Shown here: piece after piece, positions 1 to 5,651 of the stretch
Position numbering within the stretch: the first letter of the stretch is position 1
Layout: every line of letters begins with the position of its first letter
Assembly (NCBI GenBank): GCA_029879555.1
Contig: JAOUQB010000179.1
Location: forward strand, 1 to 5,651
Length of the DNA stretch: 5,651 bases
Origin: Nitrospirota bacterium
Lineage (GTDB): Bacteria; Nitrospirota; Nitrospiria; Nitrospirales; UBA8639
Direction: 5' to 3'
Position numbers and translations under genes: made by a program
Notes under the pieces: model-generated
Seen by the model: the letters and a program-made list of their open reading frames with translations, nothing else
What the model was told of the DNA's origin: nothing
The model's database searches: none

Positions 1-372
1 CCAGGTCAGGACCAGTGCTCTACTCTACCCAAGACGTGACCCCAAGACGCAAGACCCTCACGTTTGATAATGGATCAGAATTTGTGAAGCATGAAGTGCT
101 GGCGCACGCCCTCGAGGCCCATACCTACTTTGCTCATCCCTATGCCTCCTGGGAGCGCGGGATCAATGAAAACACGAACGGATTACTTCGACAGTTTTTT
201 CCGAAACACACGGACTTCAGAAAGGTCTCGTGGCAGCAGGTGCACAAGGCCGTGGACCACCTGAATAACCGTCCGAGGAAAACCCGTGGCTATCGAACGC
301 CCAACCAACTCTTCAACAAGCAATTCGTCCCGCTGGTGGATCCGGACATTGCACTTACTACTTGAATTCAAG
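1..372 (+). mobile_element. Right end of an IS30-family insertion sequence (left part outside window)
   Basis: This is the 3' part of an IS30-type element. It consists of the transposase C-terminus and, overlapping its last codons, a right terminal inverted repeat around TTGCACTTACTACTTGAATT (350-369). In IS30 elements the right inverted repeat typically overlaps the transposase 3' end, which fits. Sequence related to IS110 starts at 373, where the reverse-strand reading frame becomes alignable with the second IS110 transposase in this window (Ala-Ser of PTVGQ-x-A-S). The element end is therefore placed at or just before 372. The left inverted repeat and any target duplication are outside the window, so the exact boundary is good to a few bases only. 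Confidence 0.75.
3..365 (+). CDS. IS30-family transposase, C-terminal part (5' end outside window)
   Basis: This is the catalytic end of a DDE transposase that cuts and joins IS30 element ends. The frame is open to the window edge (from base 3), so the GTG at 15 is not taken as the start; the gene begins upstream. The visible motifs are FDNGSEF, with the second catalytic Asp, and WERGINENTNGLLRQ, with the catalytic Glu. Exactly 33 residues separate the two, the D(33)E spacing of the family. FPKHTDF and the NNRPRKTRGYRTP block follow, as is normal near the C-terminus. The protein ends PDIALTT, close to the usual IS30 terminus, so the 3' end looks natural and not truncated. Whether the element is intact cannot be judged without the upstream two thirds. 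Confidence 0.88.
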   Translation, partial: RSGPVLYSTQDVTPRRKTLTFDNGSEFVKHEVLAHALEAHTYFAHPYASWERGINENTNGLLRQFFPKHTDFRKVSWQQVHKAVDHLNNRPRKTRGYRTPNQLFNKQFVPLVDPDIALTT

Positions 373-1116
373 GGAGGCAAACTGCCCCACGGTGGGGAAG
401 CGGTGAATCTCGCCGGTCTCCAGCATGATCGTCAGGGCCAGCGTCTGGCCAATGCCGGGAACCGTCAACAGCGACTGAAAGGCCGGGCGTAGTTGCACGC
501 GGGCATGCACGGCCCGTTCCACCTGGGTGATCTGCTCCGCGAGGTGCTGCATCACGGCCACGGTCACTTCAAGGGCGAGGGCGTGTTCGGGGAGCGCCAC
601 TAACTCACGGACCTTGGCCGGGGTCAGTTGCTTGATCTGATTGCTTTTCATCGCTTGTCCCGTATTCCGAGTCAGCAAGTTTGGAATGCTGAGGAGATTG
701 GCCGTCTTCTGACGGACGAGTTGACTGCGTTTGCGCAGCAGATCGCGAATGGCTCGGTCCTCCTTGGGATAGATATAGCCCGTCGGCAACATCTCTAAGC
801 GGAGCAGATGAGCTAACCACCGCGCATCCGAGTCATCGTTGGTATATTTGAGTCCTGCGTATTGTTGTATCGCTGCGGGGTTGGCGAGGTGTACGACGTA
901 GCCCGCTTCTTGTAACCCATCCACCAACCAATACCAATTGTAGGTGGACTCCACAACCAGGCCCTGGAGTTGCGCCCGAAATGGGGCGAGTTGCGGAAGA
1001 ATCTGCGCCAACTCATTCGGCAATCGTTTCTGATACAACACCTGATCCGCTTCATCGAGCACCACGACCACACTGTTGTTGCCATGCAAGTCAATGCCGC
1101 CATACAATTTGTTCAT
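358..1116 (-). pseudogene. IS110-superfamily transposase, 3'-truncated by the IS30 element (copy 1)
   Basis: This is an RNA-guided-type recombinase gene of the IS110 superfamily, now broken. The start is the ATG at 1116-1114 (MNKLYGGIDLHGNN), preceded by a strong Shine-Dalgarno AAGGAGG at 1127-1121; an in-frame upstream extension has no such site. The RuvC-like DEDD half is intact: Asp9 in GGIDLH, Glu56 in VVESTYNWYW, and Asp94/Asp97 in the NDDSDAR block. The second half reaches the LTVPGIGQTLALTIMLETGEIHRFP segment, then homology to the intact copy at 3948-4979 stops at residue 248. The last four codons (LEFK) and the stop are read out of the abutting IS30 end. The C-terminal ~95 residues, with the Ser nucleophile region, are missing. 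The two copies agree at roughly two thirds of positions by eye, so they are related elements and not a recent duplication. Confidence 0.9.
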
Positions 1117-1201
1117 GGCTCCTCCTTGGGGTTGGGAAGGTGGAAAGATCGTTGAAGACCTCTCCACTGTACCGCCCACTTGAGGAGCCTGCTAGATGTA
1201 T
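373..1201 (-). mobile_element. Remnant of IS110/IS1111-type element, copy 1 (left end kept, right end lost)
   Basis: The element runs leftward: its left (promoter-side) end is at about 1201 and the transposase reads toward 373. The left end carries the subterminal repeat GGAGCCTGCTAGATG (1184-1198). This matches the right-end repeat of copy 2 at all 15 positions when reverse-complemented. The right end and any downstream guide-RNA region have been removed or displaced to the far side of the IS30 element. The outer limit at 1201 follows the boundary model deduced for copy 2 (three bases beyond the repeat, then AT) and is an inference. Confidence 0.75.
1184..1198 (-). repeat. Subterminal inverted repeat, left end of IS copy 1
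   Basis: GGAGCCTGCTAGATG is the reverse complement of CATCTAGCAGGCTCC at 3524-3538 (15/15) and differs by one base from the left-end repeat of copy 2 at 5047-5061. Homology to copy 2 continues inward through CTGTACCGCCCA. Confidence 0.8.
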
Positions 1202-1228
1202 ATCAAATCTTTAGTTGAGAGTTTCCCT

Positions 1229-1252
1229 GTAATAGGGTCAGTAATAGGGTCG
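1229..1252. repeat. Two tandem copies of a 12-bp unit
   Basis: GTAATAGGGTCA is followed directly by GTAATAGGGTCG at the left border of repeat unit A. The equivalent place before unit B has only CTAGTAGGGACA, so the second copy looks like a local slippage duplication. Confidence 0.7.
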
Positions 1253-1452
1253 GGCGTGCGTTATTGCATTAAGCGAAAATGGGGCAAGTTGCGTGTTTTC
1301 TAAGATTGAGGTCGCCGCACGTTTGTTGTGGTGAGTGTTGCCTGTCCGTGCGAGATGGCTTGGTTGCTTCCACTGCGATCATGATCACGCTCATTTCCTT
1401 CTGACCTGCCCACGCGCGTATTTTTTTGTTTTACACTTTTTCTCCACGCTGT
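1245..1452. repeat. ~208-bp direct repeat, unit A (flanks the toxin-antitoxin operon on the left)
   Basis: This segment matches 2871-3081 over its whole length, with about nine in ten bases identical by hand alignment and a few 1-4 base indels. Conserved stretches include CAAGTTGCGTGTTTTCTAAG and GTTGTGGTGAGTGTTGCCTG. The perfect 10-bp palindrome GATCATGATC (1377-1386) is present in both copies. No ORF is conserved between the copies, so this is non-coding repeat DNA. A weaker resemblance continues into the next two units at 1547 and 1756. The edges are where alignment fades, not sharp ends. Confidence 0.85.
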
Positions 1453-1546
1453 AGAAGGGGTCTAGGCGTTTGTTTCATGATACTTGGCCCGGTACTCTTC
1501 CCATGAAGACTGCTTTTCTTAAGCCTTTCTTGCAAGCAGGAGGTTC

Positions 1547-1755
1547 GATCTGTCGTTGACTGTTTCGTCTGCCTGATTCATGCTGCTTGGAAGATTCTGC
1601 TGTGAACACAACGGCTCTCATTTCCTCTCATTTCCCACGCCAGTAAATTTCTCTGCCTTGCCCTTTCCTGCTACACGCATTCCTCTGTTGAGCCCTTGGC
1701 GTTTAGAGGAGCCAGGTTTCCGTTGGAGACCGAAGCCTAGCTGTGTCAGGGGGCA
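1547..1755. repeat. Diverged ~209-bp tandem repeat, unit 2
   Basis: This unit aligns with the next one (from 1756) at a constant offset of 209 bases. The shared landmarks are GATCTGT, TTTCGTCTG, GCTTGGA-GATTC-GC, CTCTCTGCCTT-CC, CTTGG and GCCAGGTTTC. Part of it (GCTTGG, CTCATTTCC, CCCACGC) also aligns with unit A at an offset of 227. A 62-codon ORF starting at 1580 has no ribosome-binding site or recognisable domain and is taken as an artefact of the repeat. Confidence 0.6.
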
Positions 1756-1950
1756 GATCTGTGATTGAGAGTTTCGTCTGTTCGTGGGAAATTGCTTGGA
1801 TGATTCCGCCGCTCCCCCGCCTTCCCTCCTGACCTGCCGACGCCGGCAGCTCTCTGCCTTCCCTTTTCATCCTTCATCCTGTGTTGCCGCTTGGTATTCG
1901 GAAAAGCCGGGTTTCGCCCTCGCACGGCGTAGTCCTTTTCACTTGACCAA
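1756..1950. repeat. Diverged ~209-bp tandem repeat, unit 3
   Basis: This is the second member of the tandem pair described for 1547-1755. It keeps CTGACCTGCC-ACGC, which is also present in units A and B but lost in unit 2. The units are therefore related as a small family and not as a single duplication. A spurious ORF from 1784 parallels the one in unit 2. From 1951 to 2087 nothing is recognisable apart from the run into the operon control region. Confidence 0.55.
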
Positions 1951-2087
1951 TGCGCGGCATGTGGTCGTGTAAGGTTGCTGAAATAAAGAGAGAAAGGTCC
2001 TAGGCTGGTATTGCCTATATGGGGGGCTGCATGACAAGGGAACGGGTTCCATTCTTTTGACTATCTATTCTCTGGCATTCATCCTTT

Positions 2088-2128
2088 ATGATATTATATA
2101 ATATATTATAGATATTATTATATATCAT
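2088..2128 (+). promoter_or_regulatory. AT-only palindromic operator/promoter of the toxin-antitoxin operon
   Basis: This 41-bp tract is made almost wholly of A and T, in contrast to its surroundings. It opens with ATGATAT and closes with ATATCAT, and contains a perfect 14-bp palindrome TATAATATATTATA (2097-2110) followed by the half-sites GATAT/ATATC (2111-2126). It lies 19 bases before the antitoxin start. A TATAAT -10 candidate (2097-2102) lies inside the palindrome, with no convincing -35 (TTGACT at 2057-2062 is too far for standard spacing). Ribbon-helix-helix antitoxins commonly bind such repeats over their own promoter, so autorepression is the likely use. The binding itself is inferred. 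Confidence 0.6.
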
Positions 2129-2147
2129 CTAGTAATGTGGAGGGCCT

Positions 2148-2387
2148 ATGGGTGCCATTGCCGTTTCAAAGAAGGAAGAGCAACAAATTGCTCGGTTGCG
2201 CAAGGAGCTACGGATTCCGAGTAAGTCTGAGGTGATTCGTGTGGCGCTACAAACGCTCGAACAGAAAACATCTGAAGAACGGTTACGTCAGGAGGTGCAT
2301 CGATCCGTGCAGCGTTGTGCTCAAGCGGACCAACGTGAGAATTACCTGTTGTTTCAAAGTTCGTTCACGCATGAGCAATTGGAGTAG
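2148..2387 (+). CDS. Ribbon-helix-helix antitoxin of a MazF-type toxin-antitoxin pair
   Basis: This 79-residue protein is predicted to bind and neutralise the toxin encoded immediately downstream and to bind the operon operator. Residues about 3-40 have the ribbon-helix-helix pattern: a short strand (AIAVSKKEEQQ), a helix (IARLRKELRI), a turn (PSKS) and a second helix (EVIRVALQTLEQ). The charged tail from about residue 41 to 79 would be the toxin-binding arm, unstructured until bound. The ATG at 2148 is preceded by GGAGGG (2139-2144), closely spaced but strong. The stop at 2387 is three bases from the toxin ATG, so the genes are translationally coupled. MazE proteins of the AbrB fold do not look like this; the pairing of a ribbon-helix-helix antitoxin with MazF is known from other bacteria. 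The fold assignment is by sequence pattern only. Confidence 0.85.
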   Translation: MGAIAVSKKEEQQIARLRKELRIPSKSEVIRVALQTLEQKTSEERLRQEVHRSVQRCAQADQRENYLLFQSSFTHEQLE

Positions 2388-2390
2388 TTG

Positions 2391-2735
2391 ATGGAAATCA
2401 AATGGGGTTATGTCTATATCATCGACTTTAATCCTCAGATTAAAACGAAACCTGGAAAACTTCGGCCGGGATTAGTGCTTCAATCTGATCTGGTCACCGA
2501 AGCGGGTTATCCATCTACCATCGTTGTTCCAGCTACCACTCAATTAGTTGAGGATCCCGGTATCCTCAGATTACGCGTGAAGAAAAGCCAAGCTGGTCTT
2601 AAGCAAGACAGTGATCTGTTACTTGGTCAGCTGATCGCTGTGGCCAACGAATCGTTTCGCCAAGAGTTGAAGCCGTTGCCCATTAACTTGATGGATGAGA
2701 TCAGCAAACGAATCCGCATTCTTTTGAATCTGTGA
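2391..2735 (+). CDS. mazF: MazF/PemK-family endoribonuclease toxin
   Basis: This 114-residue protein is predicted to be a sequence-specific mRNA interferase held inactive by the upstream antitoxin. The features of the MazF/PemK fold are in order: WGYVYIIDFNP (first strand, residues 5-15), KLRPGLVL with the conserved Arg-Pro (Arg25), TIVVPATTQ with the catalytic-site Thr (49/50), and DSDLLLGQLIAV. The last block matches the conserved 'D-x-Q-hydrophobic' segment near the C-terminus, and the length fits the family. The ATG at 2391 is chosen over the TTG at 2388 because GGAG at 2381-2384 sits six bases before it. The site lies inside the antitoxin's last codons, so expression depends on translation of the antitoxin. 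No terminator is evident after the stop. All expected core motifs are present, so it is probably active; the cleavage sequence cannot be predicted. Confidence 0.9.
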   Translation: MEIKWGYVYIIDFNPQIKTKPGKLRPGLVLQSDLVTEAGYPSTIVVPATTQLVEDPGILRLRVKKSQAGLKQDSDLLLGQLIAVANESFRQELKPLPINLMDEISKRIRILLNL

Positions 2736-2814
2736 TCCGCAGACGGCTAAAAAGAAAAGGGGGCAGGTTGCTTGCTAGATAATATGACGGCTGTGAGGGT
2801 GCCGTAGGCTTGGG

Positions 2815-2857
2815 GTCACCCATTAGAAGGCTCCGGTCAAGTGGGCGCACGTCTCCT
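2815..2857 (+). mobile_element. Solo right end of an IS110/IS1111-type element
   Basis: A 43-bp segment matches the right end of IS copy 2 (3518-3561) almost base for base. It begins GTCACCCAT, then has TAGAAGG in place of CTAGCAGG, then continues CTCCGGTCAAGTGGGC, one changed base, and CACGTCTCCT. No transposase follows; the match ends and CTGCTAG (2864-2870), resembling the core of a left end, comes seven bases later. It is read as a collapsed element or an internal-deletion derivative reduced to its ends. Confidence 0.6.
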
Positions 2858-2870
2858 GGCACTCTGCTAG

Positions 2871-3081
2871 TAGGGACAGGCTTGCGTTAGTGCATTAAGC
2901 AAAAAAAATGGCAAGTTGCGTGTTTTCTAAGATAGAGGTCGCGGCACGTTTGTTGTGGTGAGTGTTGCCTGTCCGTGCGAGATGGCTTGGCTGCTTCCCC
3001 TGCGATCATGATCACGCTCCTTCCCTTCTGACCTGCCCACGCGCCCATTTTTCTGTTTTACACTTTTATTCTCCACGCTGT
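2871..3081. repeat. ~210-bp direct repeat, unit B (flanks the toxin-antitoxin operon on the right)
   Basis: This is the second copy of the repeat at 1245-1452, in the same orientation, including the GATCATGATC palindrome (3004-3013) and the closing CTCCACGCTGT. Together the copies bracket the toxin-antitoxin operon. After 3081 a shorter match (GCAAG-AGCAGG-GGTTCG) recalls the 1531-1547 region that follows unit A, with about 80 bases missing in between. Confidence 0.85.
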
Positions 3082-3133
3082 GTTGTCATTTGACCTTTGC
3101 AAGAGCAGGGGTTCGCACCTGCATGACGAGGCT

Positions 3134-3157
3134 CCTTCGACTTGGCTCAGGACAGGC
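3134..3157 (+). repeat. Short dispersed repeat, left arm of an inverted pair
   Basis: The pattern is CCTTCGA, five variable bases, CTCAGGACA, one variable base, GC. The reverse complement of 3252-3275 fits the same pattern, with 18 of 24 positions identical. Sequences of the type CCTTCGA...CTCAGGACAGG are known as common intergenic repeats in many bacteria. Confidence 0.7.
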
Positions 3158-3251
3158 CTTTTGTTTCGGCAAAATGGCCCAAAACCACTGACGTCCTGTT
3201 CGGCGGATGAAGATGGCCAGACGCCAGAAGGGGAGCGGACCAACTCGCGGA

Positions 3252-3275
3252 GCTTGTCCTGAGGTTTCTCGAAGG
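3252..3275 (-). repeat. Short dispersed repeat, right arm of an inverted pair
   Basis: This is the inverted partner of 3134-3157. It begins GCTTGTCCTGAG and ends TCGAAGG. The 94 bases between the arms (3158-3251) have no recognisable content. Confidence 0.7.
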
Positions 3276-3523
3276 GCTCAGATAAGGCCCGCCGGATAAG
3301 AGCGTCCGTTCCCGAGACCGAACAGCAGGCGTCGGGAAAGAGCGTGGATGTGTTGATAGGGTCCGGTCTTGCAATACGGTACCCTTTCTATTTCCCCATC
3401 TCATTTCGTTTTTGACTGGGATCCTCTGTTTCACATACCTGCCTCTCTAAAACGGTTTTCTTTGTGACCTGCCGCTTCTTTGCACTTGGGCTGAGGGTTG
3501 ATCCGCTTGAAAAGGATGTCACC

Positions 3524-3538
3524 CATCTAGCAGGCTCC
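3524..3538 (+). repeat. Subterminal inverted repeat, right end of IS copy 2
   Basis: CATCTAGCAGGCTCC pairs with GGAGTCTGCTAGATG at 5047-5061 (one mismatch) and matches the left-end repeat of copy 1 exactly in reverse complement. Confidence 0.85.
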
Positions 3539-3561
3539 GGTCAAGTGGGCACACGTCTCCT

Positions 3562-3947
3562 CTTCTTTCGTCCTCGCACTTTCCCTTCTGAATTTCATCG
3601 ATCCCTCGAGCGGTGAGACTTCGACTGCATCCGGATTTTCAGTGGTTGCGGTGTCTCCTCAGTGACCTGAGTCGCACCAGTCACCCATCAGGATCAAGGC
3701 CAGGAGACAGAGGCTCTCCGACCCCTGGCCACCGAGTGGCCCCAGAAAACCATTGGTGCCCGCGTGTGTCCAAACGAGAGGATCACAGATCCAGTGGTTG
3801 CCCTGTGGCTCCAACCTTTTGAGGGCTCACACCCGAGGCAGCTCAGTCCTCCCCGTCTACCGAGGAAGCAGAAGAGGGCGGGGGGATGGCCAATCAGGTT
3901 CGTGGTTCTACCAACCCCTTTCCAAGCTCATCCGACCCACCCAAGTT
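3562..3947 (-). ncRNA. Candidate guide RNA (seekRNA/bridge RNA) region of IS copy 2
   Basis: This 386-nt region between the transposase stop and the right end is far longer than a terminal repeat needs, and no frame through it looks coding. It is GC-rich and packed with possible stems: GAGAC/GTCTC (3615-3657), GTGAC/GTCAC (3662-3684), GGCCAGG/CCTGGCC (3698-3730, with inner GGAGA/TCTCC), GGCCAC-CGA-GTGGCC (3727-3741, exclusive with the previous stem), and GGTTG/CAACC (3796-3816). In IS1111-group elements the targeting RNA is encoded at this position. A 13-nt stretch at 3680-3692 equals the predicted empty target site. The minus strand is proposed because the transposase transcript reads into it. 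RNA ends and strand are inferred, and no promoter was recognised. Confidence 0.6.
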
Positions 3948-4979
3948 TCATGGGCCCGCTGCGGCAAAGGCCTTGTCAATCTCAAACGGCACCTGATCCC
4001 GCAACACGTAGTAGCAGGCTCGGGCTAACTTGTGAGCGACGGCCTTGATGGCCACCACGCGTTTCGTCTGGCTCATCTTGCGATCATAGAAGCGGCGAAT
4101 GGGGGGATAGTACCGCACGGCGTGGTTGGCCGCTTCGACAAACGCCCAGGCTAAATACTTGTTGCCATTCTTCGTGTTCCCCCGGCCTTTGCGTTTGCCA
4201 TTGCTCAGTTTCGTACTCCCCACACAGCGGCAATAGGAAGCCCACTGGCCGACGGTGGGAAAGCGGTGGATCTCCCCGGCTTCTAGCATGATCGTCAACG
4301 CGAGCGTCTGTCCCACGCCGGCGATGGTGAGGACGTGCCGAAAGGTGGGCCGGAGGGCGACCCGAGCCTTGATCGCCTGTTCCAGCGTCGCAATTTGCTC
4401 ATCCACACAGCGCAGCACGGTCAGCGTACTGGTGACGGCCAGCGCCACCTCCGTCGTCGGTAAGAGCTGCTCGACCTCTGCGACCGTGAGGGTTTTCAGC
4501 GTCTGCCCCTTGAGGGTGGTGCCCGTGTGGCGCGTCACCACCGCCTGAGCGCTGAGTAGGTTACTCGTCTTCTGCTGCACGAGCTGGCTGCGTTTTCGGA
4601 GTAAGTCGCGGACGCCTCGTTCGGCTTTGGGATAGATATAGCCCGTCGGCAACAGGCCTAACCGCAACAGATGCGCCAGCCACCGCGCATCGCTCGCATC
4701 GTCAGTGTATTTGAGGCCATTATATTGTTGCATGGCCGCCGGGTTGGCTAAGTGGACAAGATAGCCGGCCTCCATCAGGCCATCGACCAACCAGTACCAA
4801 TTATACGTCGACTCGACCACAAGCCCCTCAAGAGCGGCCTGATACGAAGTCAGTTGTCCGAGAATCGTTGCCAAGTCATTGGGCAGGCGTTTCCGATACA
4901 CGATCTGATCTGCGTCATCCACAATGACGATCACACTGTTGTTGGCATGCAAATCAATGCCGCCGTACAAGTTGTTCAT
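3948..4979 (-). CDS. IS110/IS1111-family transposase (DEDD recombinase), full length
   Basis: This 343-residue protein is predicted to be the RNA-guided recombinase that excises and integrates its element. The start is the ATG at 4979-4977 behind AAGGAGG (4990-4984). The N-terminal RuvC-like domain shows the DEDD residues: Asp9 (GGIDLHANN), Glu56 (VVESTYNWYW) and Asp94/Asp97 (TDDASDARW). A helical linker follows (about 118-205), then the Transposase_20-type domain. That domain has a helix-hairpin-helix-like segment (LTIAGVGQTLALTIMLEAG, 217-235), HRFPTVGQWASY, and LSNGKRKGRGNTKNGNKYL. Ser259 of the last block fits the position of the catalytic Ser in this family. No frameshift or missing motif is visible, and length is normal, so it is probably functional. 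Copy 1 (358-1116) is a diverged, truncated relative. Confidence 0.93.
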   Translation of the reverse strand: MNNLYGGIDLHANNSVIVIVDDADQIVYRKRLPNDLATILGQLTSYQAALEGLVVESTYNWYWLVDGLMEAGYLVHLANPAAMQQYNGLKYTDDASDARWLAHLLRLGLLPTGYIYPKAERGVRDLLRKRSQLVQQKTSNLLSAQAVVTRHTGTTLKGQTLKTLTVAEVEQLLPTTEVALAVTSTLTVLRCVDEQIATLEQAIKARVALRPTFRHVLTIAGVGQTLALTIMLEAGEIHRFPTVGQWASYCRCVGSTKLSNGKRKGRGNTKNGNKYLAWAFVEAANHAVRYYPPIRRFYDRKMSQTKRVVAIKAVAHKLARACYYVLRDQVPFEIDKAFAAAGP

Positions 4980-5001
4980 GGCTCCTCCTTGGGTTGAGAA
5001 T

Positions 5002-5030
5002 GTTGAGAAACTCTTGACCGGTCTCTCAAC
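5002..5030 (-). other. Conserved hairpin in the left end, upstream of the transposase of copy 2
   Basis: GTTGAGA (5002-5008) pairs with TCTCAAC (5024-5030) across a 15-base loop, about 12 bases upstream of the ribosome-binding site. At the same place copy 1 has GTGGA (1140-1144) pairing with TCCAC (1163-1167). The arms changed together, which argues that the pairing matters, either as DNA structure or in the leader RNA. The role is unknown. Confidence 0.5.
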
Positions 5031-5046
5031 TGTACCGCCCAGGCGA

Positions 5047-5061
5047 GGAGTCTGCTAGATG
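5047..5061 (-). repeat. Subterminal inverted repeat, left end of IS copy 2
   Basis: GGAGTCTGCTAGATG is the partner of 3524-3538. Three bases (ATT, 5062-5064) lie between it and the proposed junction AT at 5065-5066. Extra bases outside the left repeat are usual in IS1111-group elements. Confidence 0.85.
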
Positions 5062-5064
5062 ATT

Positions 5065-5379
5065 ATCAGGTAGCTTGCTTCATGATATAAATCCATTGAG
5101 GATAGGGGCAGCGTAGAGCACTGGTGCTGACAGTAGGTCCCTCCGTCCTGCATGGTGGCTCTTCCGCTACAGGCCGCCCCTGCCCCTCTTTTTCGAAAGG
5201 GTGGAGTGCCCACCAACCTCCTCATTATCGATGGCTCATACATTGACCAAGGTTTCTGGCCTCACCAAAATGACCATTGTTTCGCTTCGAGGGGAGGGCA
5301 GAACCATAGATTCTGTGATCCCGTTTAAGGCTATGTTCATCGCAGCTTTTTCTCTTTGATGACGTGAGGGGGAAAGAGA
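5065..5379. other. Stretch without a clear gene between IS copy 2 and the PEP-CTERM fragment
   Basis: No long frame with family features is seen. A 42-codon frame at 5231-5359 lacks a ribosome-binding site. Possible RNA structure includes GGGGCAG (5105-5111) against CTGCCCC (5180-5186) and the small stem AGCAC-TG-GTGCT (5118-5129). These could belong to a leader of the gene at 5380 or to the decayed body of a PEP-CTERM protein gene; neither can be shown. Confidence 0.4.
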
Positions 5380-5454
5380 ATGCCACCAGGCACCATGGTG
5401 CTCATGGGCACCGGACTCTTGGGCTTAGGTCTTTGGAGACGGTTCAAGAAGTAA
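5380..5454 (+). CDS. PEP-CTERM anchor remnant or micro-ORF (24 residues)
   Basis: The 24-codon frame reads MPPGTMVLM, then GTGLLGLGL, then WRRFKK and stop. This is the complete C-terminal sorting tail of a PEP-CTERM protein: proline motif, short transmembrane helix, basic end. In the family this tail directs exported proteins to exosortase for cleavage and surface release or anchoring. The usual start of the tail is VPEPGT; here MPPGT aligns with it if the Glu codon is deleted, so recognition by exosortase is doubtful. The frame is closed by TGA at 5365-5367, so no exported body is attached. Purine-rich GAGGGGG (5366-5372) could serve as a ribosome-binding site for the ATG. A strong terminator follows at 5494. 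The likeliest reading is the 3' relic of a PEP-CTERM gene; a free-standing peptide is the alternative. Confidence 0.6.
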   Translation: MPPGTMVLMGTGLLGLGLWRRFKK

Positions 5455-5493
5455 GCAGTTGAATAGAGCCAGCTAGACTTTCTAGCAGGTTAC

Positions 5494-5532
5494 AAAAAGC
5501 GGGTGAGGAATCTTCCTCACCCGCTTTTTTTT
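5494..5532. terminator. Strong bidirectional rho-independent terminator
   Basis: GCGGGTGAGGAA (5499-5510) and TTCCTCACCCGC (5513-5524) form a perfect 12-bp inverted repeat. It is followed by eight T on the plus strand (5525-5532) and preceded by five A (5494-5498), which are T on the minus strand. It sits between the PEP-CTERM frame on the plus strand and a converging minus-strand gene, so it can end both transcripts. Confidence 0.95.
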
Positions 5533-5542
5533 GCACACCTCA

Positions 5543-5651
5543 TCAATATCTACCGCTTGATTCAATTTGTCGAAGATACTTCACATATCGGCTGCTATCC
5601 GGCATCTTCCCCGGAACCCAAGCGTCTCCATCACGTAGTAATCGATCCATA
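5543..5651 (-). CDS. C-terminus of an unidentified minus-strand protein (start probably outside window)
   Basis: A minus-strand frame enters from the right edge and stops at 5545-5543. The visible 35 residues begin MDRLLRDGDAWVPGK and end RQIESSGRY. They are hydrophilic with ordinary composition, and the frame ends 11 bases before the terminator's T-run, as expected for the 3' end of a real gene. The ATG at 5650-5648 has no visible upstream sequence, so it cannot be called the start. I do not recognise the family. Confidence 0.5.
   Translation of the reverse strand, partial: MDRLLRDGDAWVPGKMPDSSRYVKYLRQIESSGRY

Follow-up and report, generated by a model that had tools for sequence, protein, structure and literature searches.

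A recurring 13-mer in an IS1111-like element of a Nitrospirota bacterium probably belongs to the donor loop of a predicted bridge RNA

In the IS1111 elements tested in PMC11187229, a promoter lies at the joined element ends, and passages of that paper describe how seekRNAs match their targets and in which order the matches come, an order also met in the family treated here. In IS621, two-letter handshake guides pair with non-cognate DNA past the core (passages of PMC11208158), and in many IS1111 elements the donor letters lie in a multiloop (passages of Durrant et al., PMC11208160). Here we describe an IS1111-like element on the minus strand of a 5,651-nt stretch of DNA from a Nitrospirota bacterium (GenBank assembly GCA_029879555.1, contig JAOUQB010000179.1, positions 1 to 5,651), referred to as the window. 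Its non-coding region contains a 13-mer, GTCACCCATCAGG (3680-3692), which an earlier note, made from the letters of the window, had taken for the target guide of a bridge RNA. Comparison of relatives makes it highly probable that the 13-mer lies in a conserved second loop of a predicted bridge RNA, where it would bind the right end of the element itself together with the TG core and two right-flank letters of the target, and that the first loop (3893-3922) would choose the target. A donor-guide reading of the 13-mer thus replaces the target-guide reading.

Relatives were collected by scanning genome contigs, which gave 415 encoding stretches. The best 80 were fetched and made 82 elements together with the window and a copy elsewhere in its assembly (C203). 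Of these, 77 were kept (L033, L034 and L063 were dropped as near-duplicates, L078 and L091 as 5′-truncated), and 58 had both flanks. Donor loops were located with a pattern allowing at most 6 substitutions, so strongly changed ones are missing from the 67 that could be read; target loops were read out by alignment columns, RNA position n corresponding to window position 3951-n. A plasmid set consisted of 167 records, the best 40 of which were listed; 16 of these had at least 48% identity, and 8 of the 16 were fetched. Viral contigs gave no relative with the query used. Left and right flanks and left and right ends are denoted LF, RF, LE and RE below.

The letters before UG in the second loop, assigned to a left donor guide (LDG), follow the element's own right end, ATGGG or ATGAG, among 62 elements (0 of 2000 shuffles). 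Flank and guide had been expected by the earlier note to co-vary within the 13-mer, and this holds for its last two letters but not for its left arm, which ignores the left flank (1.705 against a shuffled 1.698; 1030 of 2000 shuffles; 61 elements). These last two letters, the tail of the donor loop, agree with RF+1,+2 at 1.90 of 2 positions as compared with 1.53 after shuffling (0 of 2000), and are unrelated to the left end (1968 of 2000). The first tail letter equals RF+1 in 54 of 56 elements, where 33.6 would be expected. Among 95 close pairs with transposases at least 70% identical, it changes in 31 of the 36 pairs in which RF+1 has changed and in none of the 59 in which it has not; the five misses all involve L015. 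By eye, the tail is RF+1,+2 in seven of seven plasmid copies. Extra stretches of about 25-35 nt were seen within the donor loops of L019 and L082.

The window has exactly two copies of the 10-mer GTCACCCATC (3518-3527 and 3680-3689), as the earlier note had reported, and the match is no accident, because the resemblance is kept and co-varies among relatives. Use of the 13-mer as a target guide is a different matter. The exact 13-mer is carried by 29 of the 67 readable loops, and these 29 elements have 19 different left-flank 5-mers. L014, the closest relative of the window element, with a transposase 93% identical, has a left flank ending in CAACT against CTACC in the window; its 13-mer is unchanged and its other loop is altered, a combination of different flanks with the same 13-mer that the earlier note itself had named as telling against its proposal. 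In the 3.2-Mb assembly of the window, GTCACCCATCAGG is found twice (3680-3692 and C203:3946-3958; 0 for the reversed-pattern control), both times in the non-coding regions of elements of the same family whose DNA is 75% identical, and nowhere outside these two donor loops.

Target choice probably lies with the first loop. Its right target guide (RTG), before UGG, is complementary to the right flank at 5.77 of 7 positions (better of two registers; shuffled 3.92; 64 elements), and its left target guide (LTG), before UGAU, equals the left flank at 4.21 of 6 (shuffled 2.17; 68 elements), with 0 of 2000 shuffles in both cases. Both signals persist when the commonest targets are left out (35 and 40 elements; 0 of 2000). 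The two-letter tail of this loop is LE+1,+2 in 68 of 70 elements (0 of 2000). In pairs that are 93-96% identical (L047/L051, L043/L062, L056/L076 and L014/window), the target loop switches with the flank and the second loop differs in no more than one letter. The plasmid copies have an LTG fit of 4.13 of 6 (8 copies; shuffled 2.26; 1 of 5000) and an RTG fit of 6.43 of 7 (7 copies; shuffled 3.52; 2 of 5000), and by eye the target-loop tail equals the left end in 7 of 8. They do not count as eight independent cases, because two pairs share guides and all are from Burkholderiales. LTG, RTG and LDG of an IS621-type guide set are thus supported by co-variation, and a right donor guide (RDG) weakly.

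Flank positions were also paired with RNA columns in an unbiased scan (19,578 pairs), which used 56 of the 58 elements having both flanks (without L030, which has a long region, and L028, which has a short left flank). Guide positions were among the strongest, in the pairs LF-1/RNA 54, RF+4/34, RF+1/270, RF+1/37, LF-2/53, LE+2/58 and RE-2/266. The list also includes the right end matched to itself.

One Elusimicrobia assembly contains three related elements, L047, L057 and L058, with different target guides, a case of natural reprogramming side by side. Another loop, termed loop 1b, resembles the target loop and is kept across the clade; it is mostly unchanged when the target guide switches in close relatives. 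Over 56 elements, the right flank correlates with the right half of this loop (0 of 2000 shuffles), and the correlation of the left half is weak (86 of 2000). Loop 1b was considered as a second target loop and rejected; shared ancestry is the preferred source of the correlation, because the right half stays constant in the target-switched close pairs L047/L051 and L043/L062.

A consensus fold of 15 sequences has 62 pairs; in 28 of them, one or more sequences differ at both positions while keeping the pairing, a count made with no shuffle control. It contains a stem-loop with RTG and LTG on opposite sides and UGG/CCA near the tip, followed by a multiloop that holds loop 1b, the candidate RDG and the second loop. 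We take RTG and LTG to be separated by an open internal loop. The earlier suggestion of a bridge RNA or seekRNA-type guide is borne out to this extent: the element is of the IS110/IS1111 type, and covarying pairs as well as guide segments occur in its 3′ non-coding region, the 13-mer belonging to one of these segments. The imperfect hairpin drawn around the 13-mer in the earlier note fared less well. Its letters are where they were said to be, but the hairpin is missing from the consensus fold of 15 relatives and was ruled out on that ground; there the 13-mer lies in the multiloop, and the local pairs are nearly invariant and uninformative on that hairpin.

Empty sites read left flank-TG-right flank. 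The repeat to which the left flank of the window belongs gave five pattern matches in 48 genomes, that of the window being occupied and four unoccupied. The four continue as CYTGACCC or CCTGACCT, so that all of them read C[C/T]TGACC where GTCACCCATCAGG had been predicted, the other outcome that the earlier note had named as speaking against its proposal. GCAAGACCTGACCC, in which TG connects the most frequent left flank with the most frequent right flank, has 19 copies in 10 of 20 genomes of the genus (0 for the reversed pattern). These sites (L094-L112, L048:3960-4140) are dispersed and sometimes tandem, and many elements of the family insert there; bearing on whether they are repetitive extragenic palindromic (REP) sequences linked to RAYT, a scan for the MPNHxH motif found none in the 19 loci, up to about 1.5 kb on each side. 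The contig of L048 has four intact sites next to the element, and three of these read AAAACGCAAGACC-TG-ACCCCAACACA, as the flanks of the element itself do. In L068, from an uncultured Pseudomonadota bacterium, the element splits cysS, and the frame is restored by LF-TG-RF. The joined cysS can be aligned to two solved cysteinyl-tRNA synthetases with no gap where the flanks meet (the closest one is a few residues on), and it scores 183 bits with TIGR00435, under the whole-protein cut-off because the sequence is a fragment.

In the earlier model, the 13-mer serves as target guide and an empty site reads GTCACCCATCAGG. The exact 13-mer can indeed be built from the window flanks, its last two letters do track the right flank, and in the window alone its match is longer than that of the target loop. 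We nevertheless consider this model very improbable, as the real empty sites differ, the joined site that it predicts, searched for in its family-consensus form RAYYTGATGGGTGACYC, gave 0 matches in 20 genomes of the genus, the same 13-mer goes with many left flanks to which its left arm is uncorrelated, and a join of that style shifts the frame of cysS in L068. It is also improbable, if somewhat less so, that the resemblance comes from a DNA motif conserved in the right end, such as a site bound by the transposase, which is repeated in the non-coding region and leaves the second loop without a role as RNA guide. Strong conservation of the loop and its similarity to the right end would be accounted for in this way. 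A binding site of the element is not expected, however, to have a tail that changes along with the target flank among closely related elements (31 of 36 against 0 of 59), and the loop lies within a region of covarying pairs.

The least probable alternative, for which we see next to no chance, is that the element itself simply ends in CCTGAT and GGGTGAC, with no reading of a target. These two strings are frequent at element ends in the family, but the left-flank letters vary and match another loop, and the letters right of TG vary too, TG-ACCC being present in unoccupied target repeats. We return to the reading in which the second loop would bind the donor ends and the first loop the target.

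Several points weigh against that reading. The window's own fit is 3 of 6 for LTG and 4 of 7 for RTG, near the shuffled means, and a search of 47 other family genomes gave no empty copy of its exact site, so the case for the window alone rests on its relatives; GCAAGACCTGACCC has no copy in the window's own assembly either. The core is unequal between the two junctions in 7 of 60 elements having both. Six of 62 donor-loop tails miss one right-flank letter (the first in L015 and L074, the second in L016, L031, L050 and L054), and the candidate RDG makes 3.80 as compared with 3.66 pairs of 6 (8 of 2000 shuffles; 65 elements), a weak signal. The 95 close pairs represent few independent events, because they share members and the changed ones fall in three clusters. 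Shuffles ignore relatedness, and in the scan, columns to which no role is assigned attain z values up to about 6, a sign of how much ancestry is shared. In the consensus fold, four letters of RTG are paired with four of LTG, so that the internal loop is not left open there, and the window sequence folded by itself does no better than shuffled ones (z -0.35). Finally, ends and loop were located with fuzzy family-consensus patterns, five right ends being set by hand (L015, L019, L069, L082 and L084) and three with a tighter pattern (the window, L014 and L018); two others, of L035 and L072, were omitted as uncertain.

The transposase of the window element matches PF01548 (3.8e-15) and PF02371 (1.9e-15), both above the Pfam cut-offs, and thus has the DEDD (RuvC-like) N-terminal domain and the Transposase_20 C-terminal domain of the IS110/IS1111 superfamily. 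Its 343 aa fall inside the IS1111 range of 330-350 aa. The subterminal inverted repeats are 13/14 bp identical, resembling the near-perfect repeats of 11-13 bp in IS1111, and the extensions of 6 bp on the left (8 counting one core copy) and 3 bp on the right correspond to 7 or 6 and 3 in that group, as does a non-coding region downstream of the transposase, 426 nt from the gene (3948) to the right end (3522). Unlike in the IS1111 group, whose C-terminal domain has the motif GL-P----S(t)G, no G..P....[ST]G string was found in this transposase, which has S-N-G in its C-terminal half, and for this reason the element is called IS1111-like.

The element ends were set from relatives and empty sites and agree with the promoter predicted at the circle junction. 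The earlier note had cut the element out at a shared AT, which does not hold: CCC at 3522-3524 (GGG) belongs to the element, and what is shared is the core TG (CA at 3520-3521 and 5067-5068). It is identical at both junctions in 53 of 60 elements having both. A core of TGA was also considered and fails in elements with TGAA on the left and TGTC on the right, such as L085, so the core has two letters. The stretch around CCTTGATCCTGATGGGTGACTGGTGCG is strongly conserved despite differing flanks in part of the elements, and another segment, close to where the gene ends, varies with the flank. When the ends are joined as GGG-TG-ATAAT, a TTGAC-like hexamer (at least 5/6) lies 15-18 nt before a GATAAT-like one (at least 4/6). 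Such a pair is found in 52 of 60 elements and the -35-like hexamer in 58 of 60, as compared with 0 of 1200 random places in the same regions. Coordinates are collected in Table 1.

Table 1. Positions in the window of the IS1111-like element, its junctions and the proposed parts of its RNA
Feature	Position	Strand	Basis
IS110/IS1111 DEDD transposase, 343 aa, open frame	3948..4979	-	Pfam match, open reading frame
Element without core dinucleotide, 1545 bp; left end 5066, right end 3522	3522..5066	-	Relatives, empty sites
Core dinucleotide TG, right junction (RE-GGG / TG / AC..)	3520..3521	-	Relatives, empty sites
Core dinucleotide TG, left junction (..ACC / TG / ATAATC-LE)	5067..5068	-	Relatives, empty sites
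Right subterminal inverted repeat, then 3-bp GGG extension	3525..3538	-	13/14 bp identical to left repeat
Left subterminal inverted repeat, 6-bp ATAATC extension before it (8 with core)	5047..5060	-	
Left flank GCAAGCTACC, part of dispersed repeat	5069..5078	-	Five exact pattern matches, 48 genomes
Right flank ACATCCTTTTCA	3508..3519	-	
RTG GAAAGGGGU	3914..3922	-	Co-variation with right flank
LTG CACGAACC	3897..3904	-	Co-variation with left flank
Core copy UG and two-letter tail AU of target loop, equal to first two left-end letters	3893..3896	-	
Loop 1b, resembling target loop (GGTTGG ... GATCTG)	3780..3823	-	Covarying stem
Candidate RDG GGUUUUC, complement of core and left end with mismatch	3745..3751	-	
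LDG CCUGAUGGG, first 9 minus-strand letters of the 13-mer; GAUGGG matches right end	3684..3692	-	
Core copy UG, donor loop	3682..3683	-	
Two-letter tail AC of donor loop (handshake-like), equal to first two right-flank letters	3680..3681	-	
-35-like TTGACC in right end, positioned for use only with ends joined	3539..3544	-	Prediction
-10-like GATAAT, core G and left end, 18 nt from TTGACC in joined circle	5062..5067	-	Prediction

Other parts of the window bear traces of the same family. A truncated relative lies on the minus strand at 358-1206 (transposase part 67% identical), with its own left end and the left flank AAGATT-TG-ATATAC, and a right-end relic lies at 2815-2857, its outer flank TG-ACCCCAAGCC being that of the C203 element. 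Between them, at 2148-2735, a small open reading frame of 79 aa with no Pfam match is followed by a PemK/MazF-like toxin gene (PF02452), and the two are likely a toxin-antitoxin pair. The window also has a 165-bp direct repeat (1276-1440 and 2903-3067; 93% identical) and a 26-nt inverted repeat (5-30 and 5106-5131; 88% complementary).

We conceive the following course. The RNA would be transcribed from the minus strand, probably from the promoter formed by the joined right and left ends in the excised circle. In the first loop, the 5′ segment would pair with the top strand right of the core and the 3′ segment with the bottom strand left of it, while the second loop would bind the donor ends. 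After strand exchange, the target-loop tail AU may pair with the incoming left end, and the donor-loop tail AC with the right flank. Going further, bridge RNAs of the IS1111 type may have a mirror-image handshake, in which the donor tail reads the right flank of the target and the target tail reads the left end of the element, both on the bottom strand; the bottom strand would therefore be exchanged first, the reverse of IS621. For this proposal, drawn from sequence comparison, we judge the chances for and against to be even. As a rule for the clade, retargeting would need a new RTG and LTG as well as a two-letter donor tail chosen for the new right flank. This coupling of donor loop and target by two letters would be easily overlooked in reprogramming elements of the IS1111 type.

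Among described systems, the IS1111 elements with seekRNAs (ISEc11, ISPa11 and ISKpn4 in passages of PMC11187229) resemble the family in the downstream non-coding region, the subterminal repeats and the 3-bp right extension. The likeness extends to a promoter from the joined ends and to a top-strand complement placed 5′ of the bottom-strand match, which is found in the family and in the plasmid copies, and weakly in the window. One known member inserts into dispersed repeats of the REP kind, as the family here inserts into its own. The results passages of that paper describe no donor loop and no two-letter tail reading the flank of the partner. The IS1111 bridge RNAs of Durrant et al. (PMC11208160) are alike in lying in the right end and in having donor letters in a multiloop; that study examined six diverse IS110/IS1111 elements by hand, and the passages do not name the present clade. 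The name ISGsu4 family is linked to the clade by the annotators' label on two plasmid records, which hold relatives 52% identical, and the one paper found under that name deals with a different subject; L120, a plasmid copy with this label, obeys the same guide rule. Among the best 40 of the 167 plasmid records, identity falls from 48-57% for relatives of the clade to about 31%.

IS621 (passages of PMC11208160 and PMC11208158) shares the two loops, the left and right guides around a dinucleotide core and a tail that pairs with non-cognate DNA. Its RNA, however, lies upstream of the gene in the left end, whereas the guide segments here lie downstream, and its handshake guides follow the guides that pair with the top strand, whereas the tails here follow those that pair with the bottom strand. 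The tail letters of the family do match non-cognate DNA past the core by sequence, on the strand opposite to that in IS621. We found no description of a two-letter handshake for IS1111 in the literature searched, preprints and most subscription papers being outside the search. The element is classed as IS1111-like, and the mirror-image handshake is put forward as the new part; it would extend the handshake idea of IS621 to the opposite order of guides and predicts which strand moves first.

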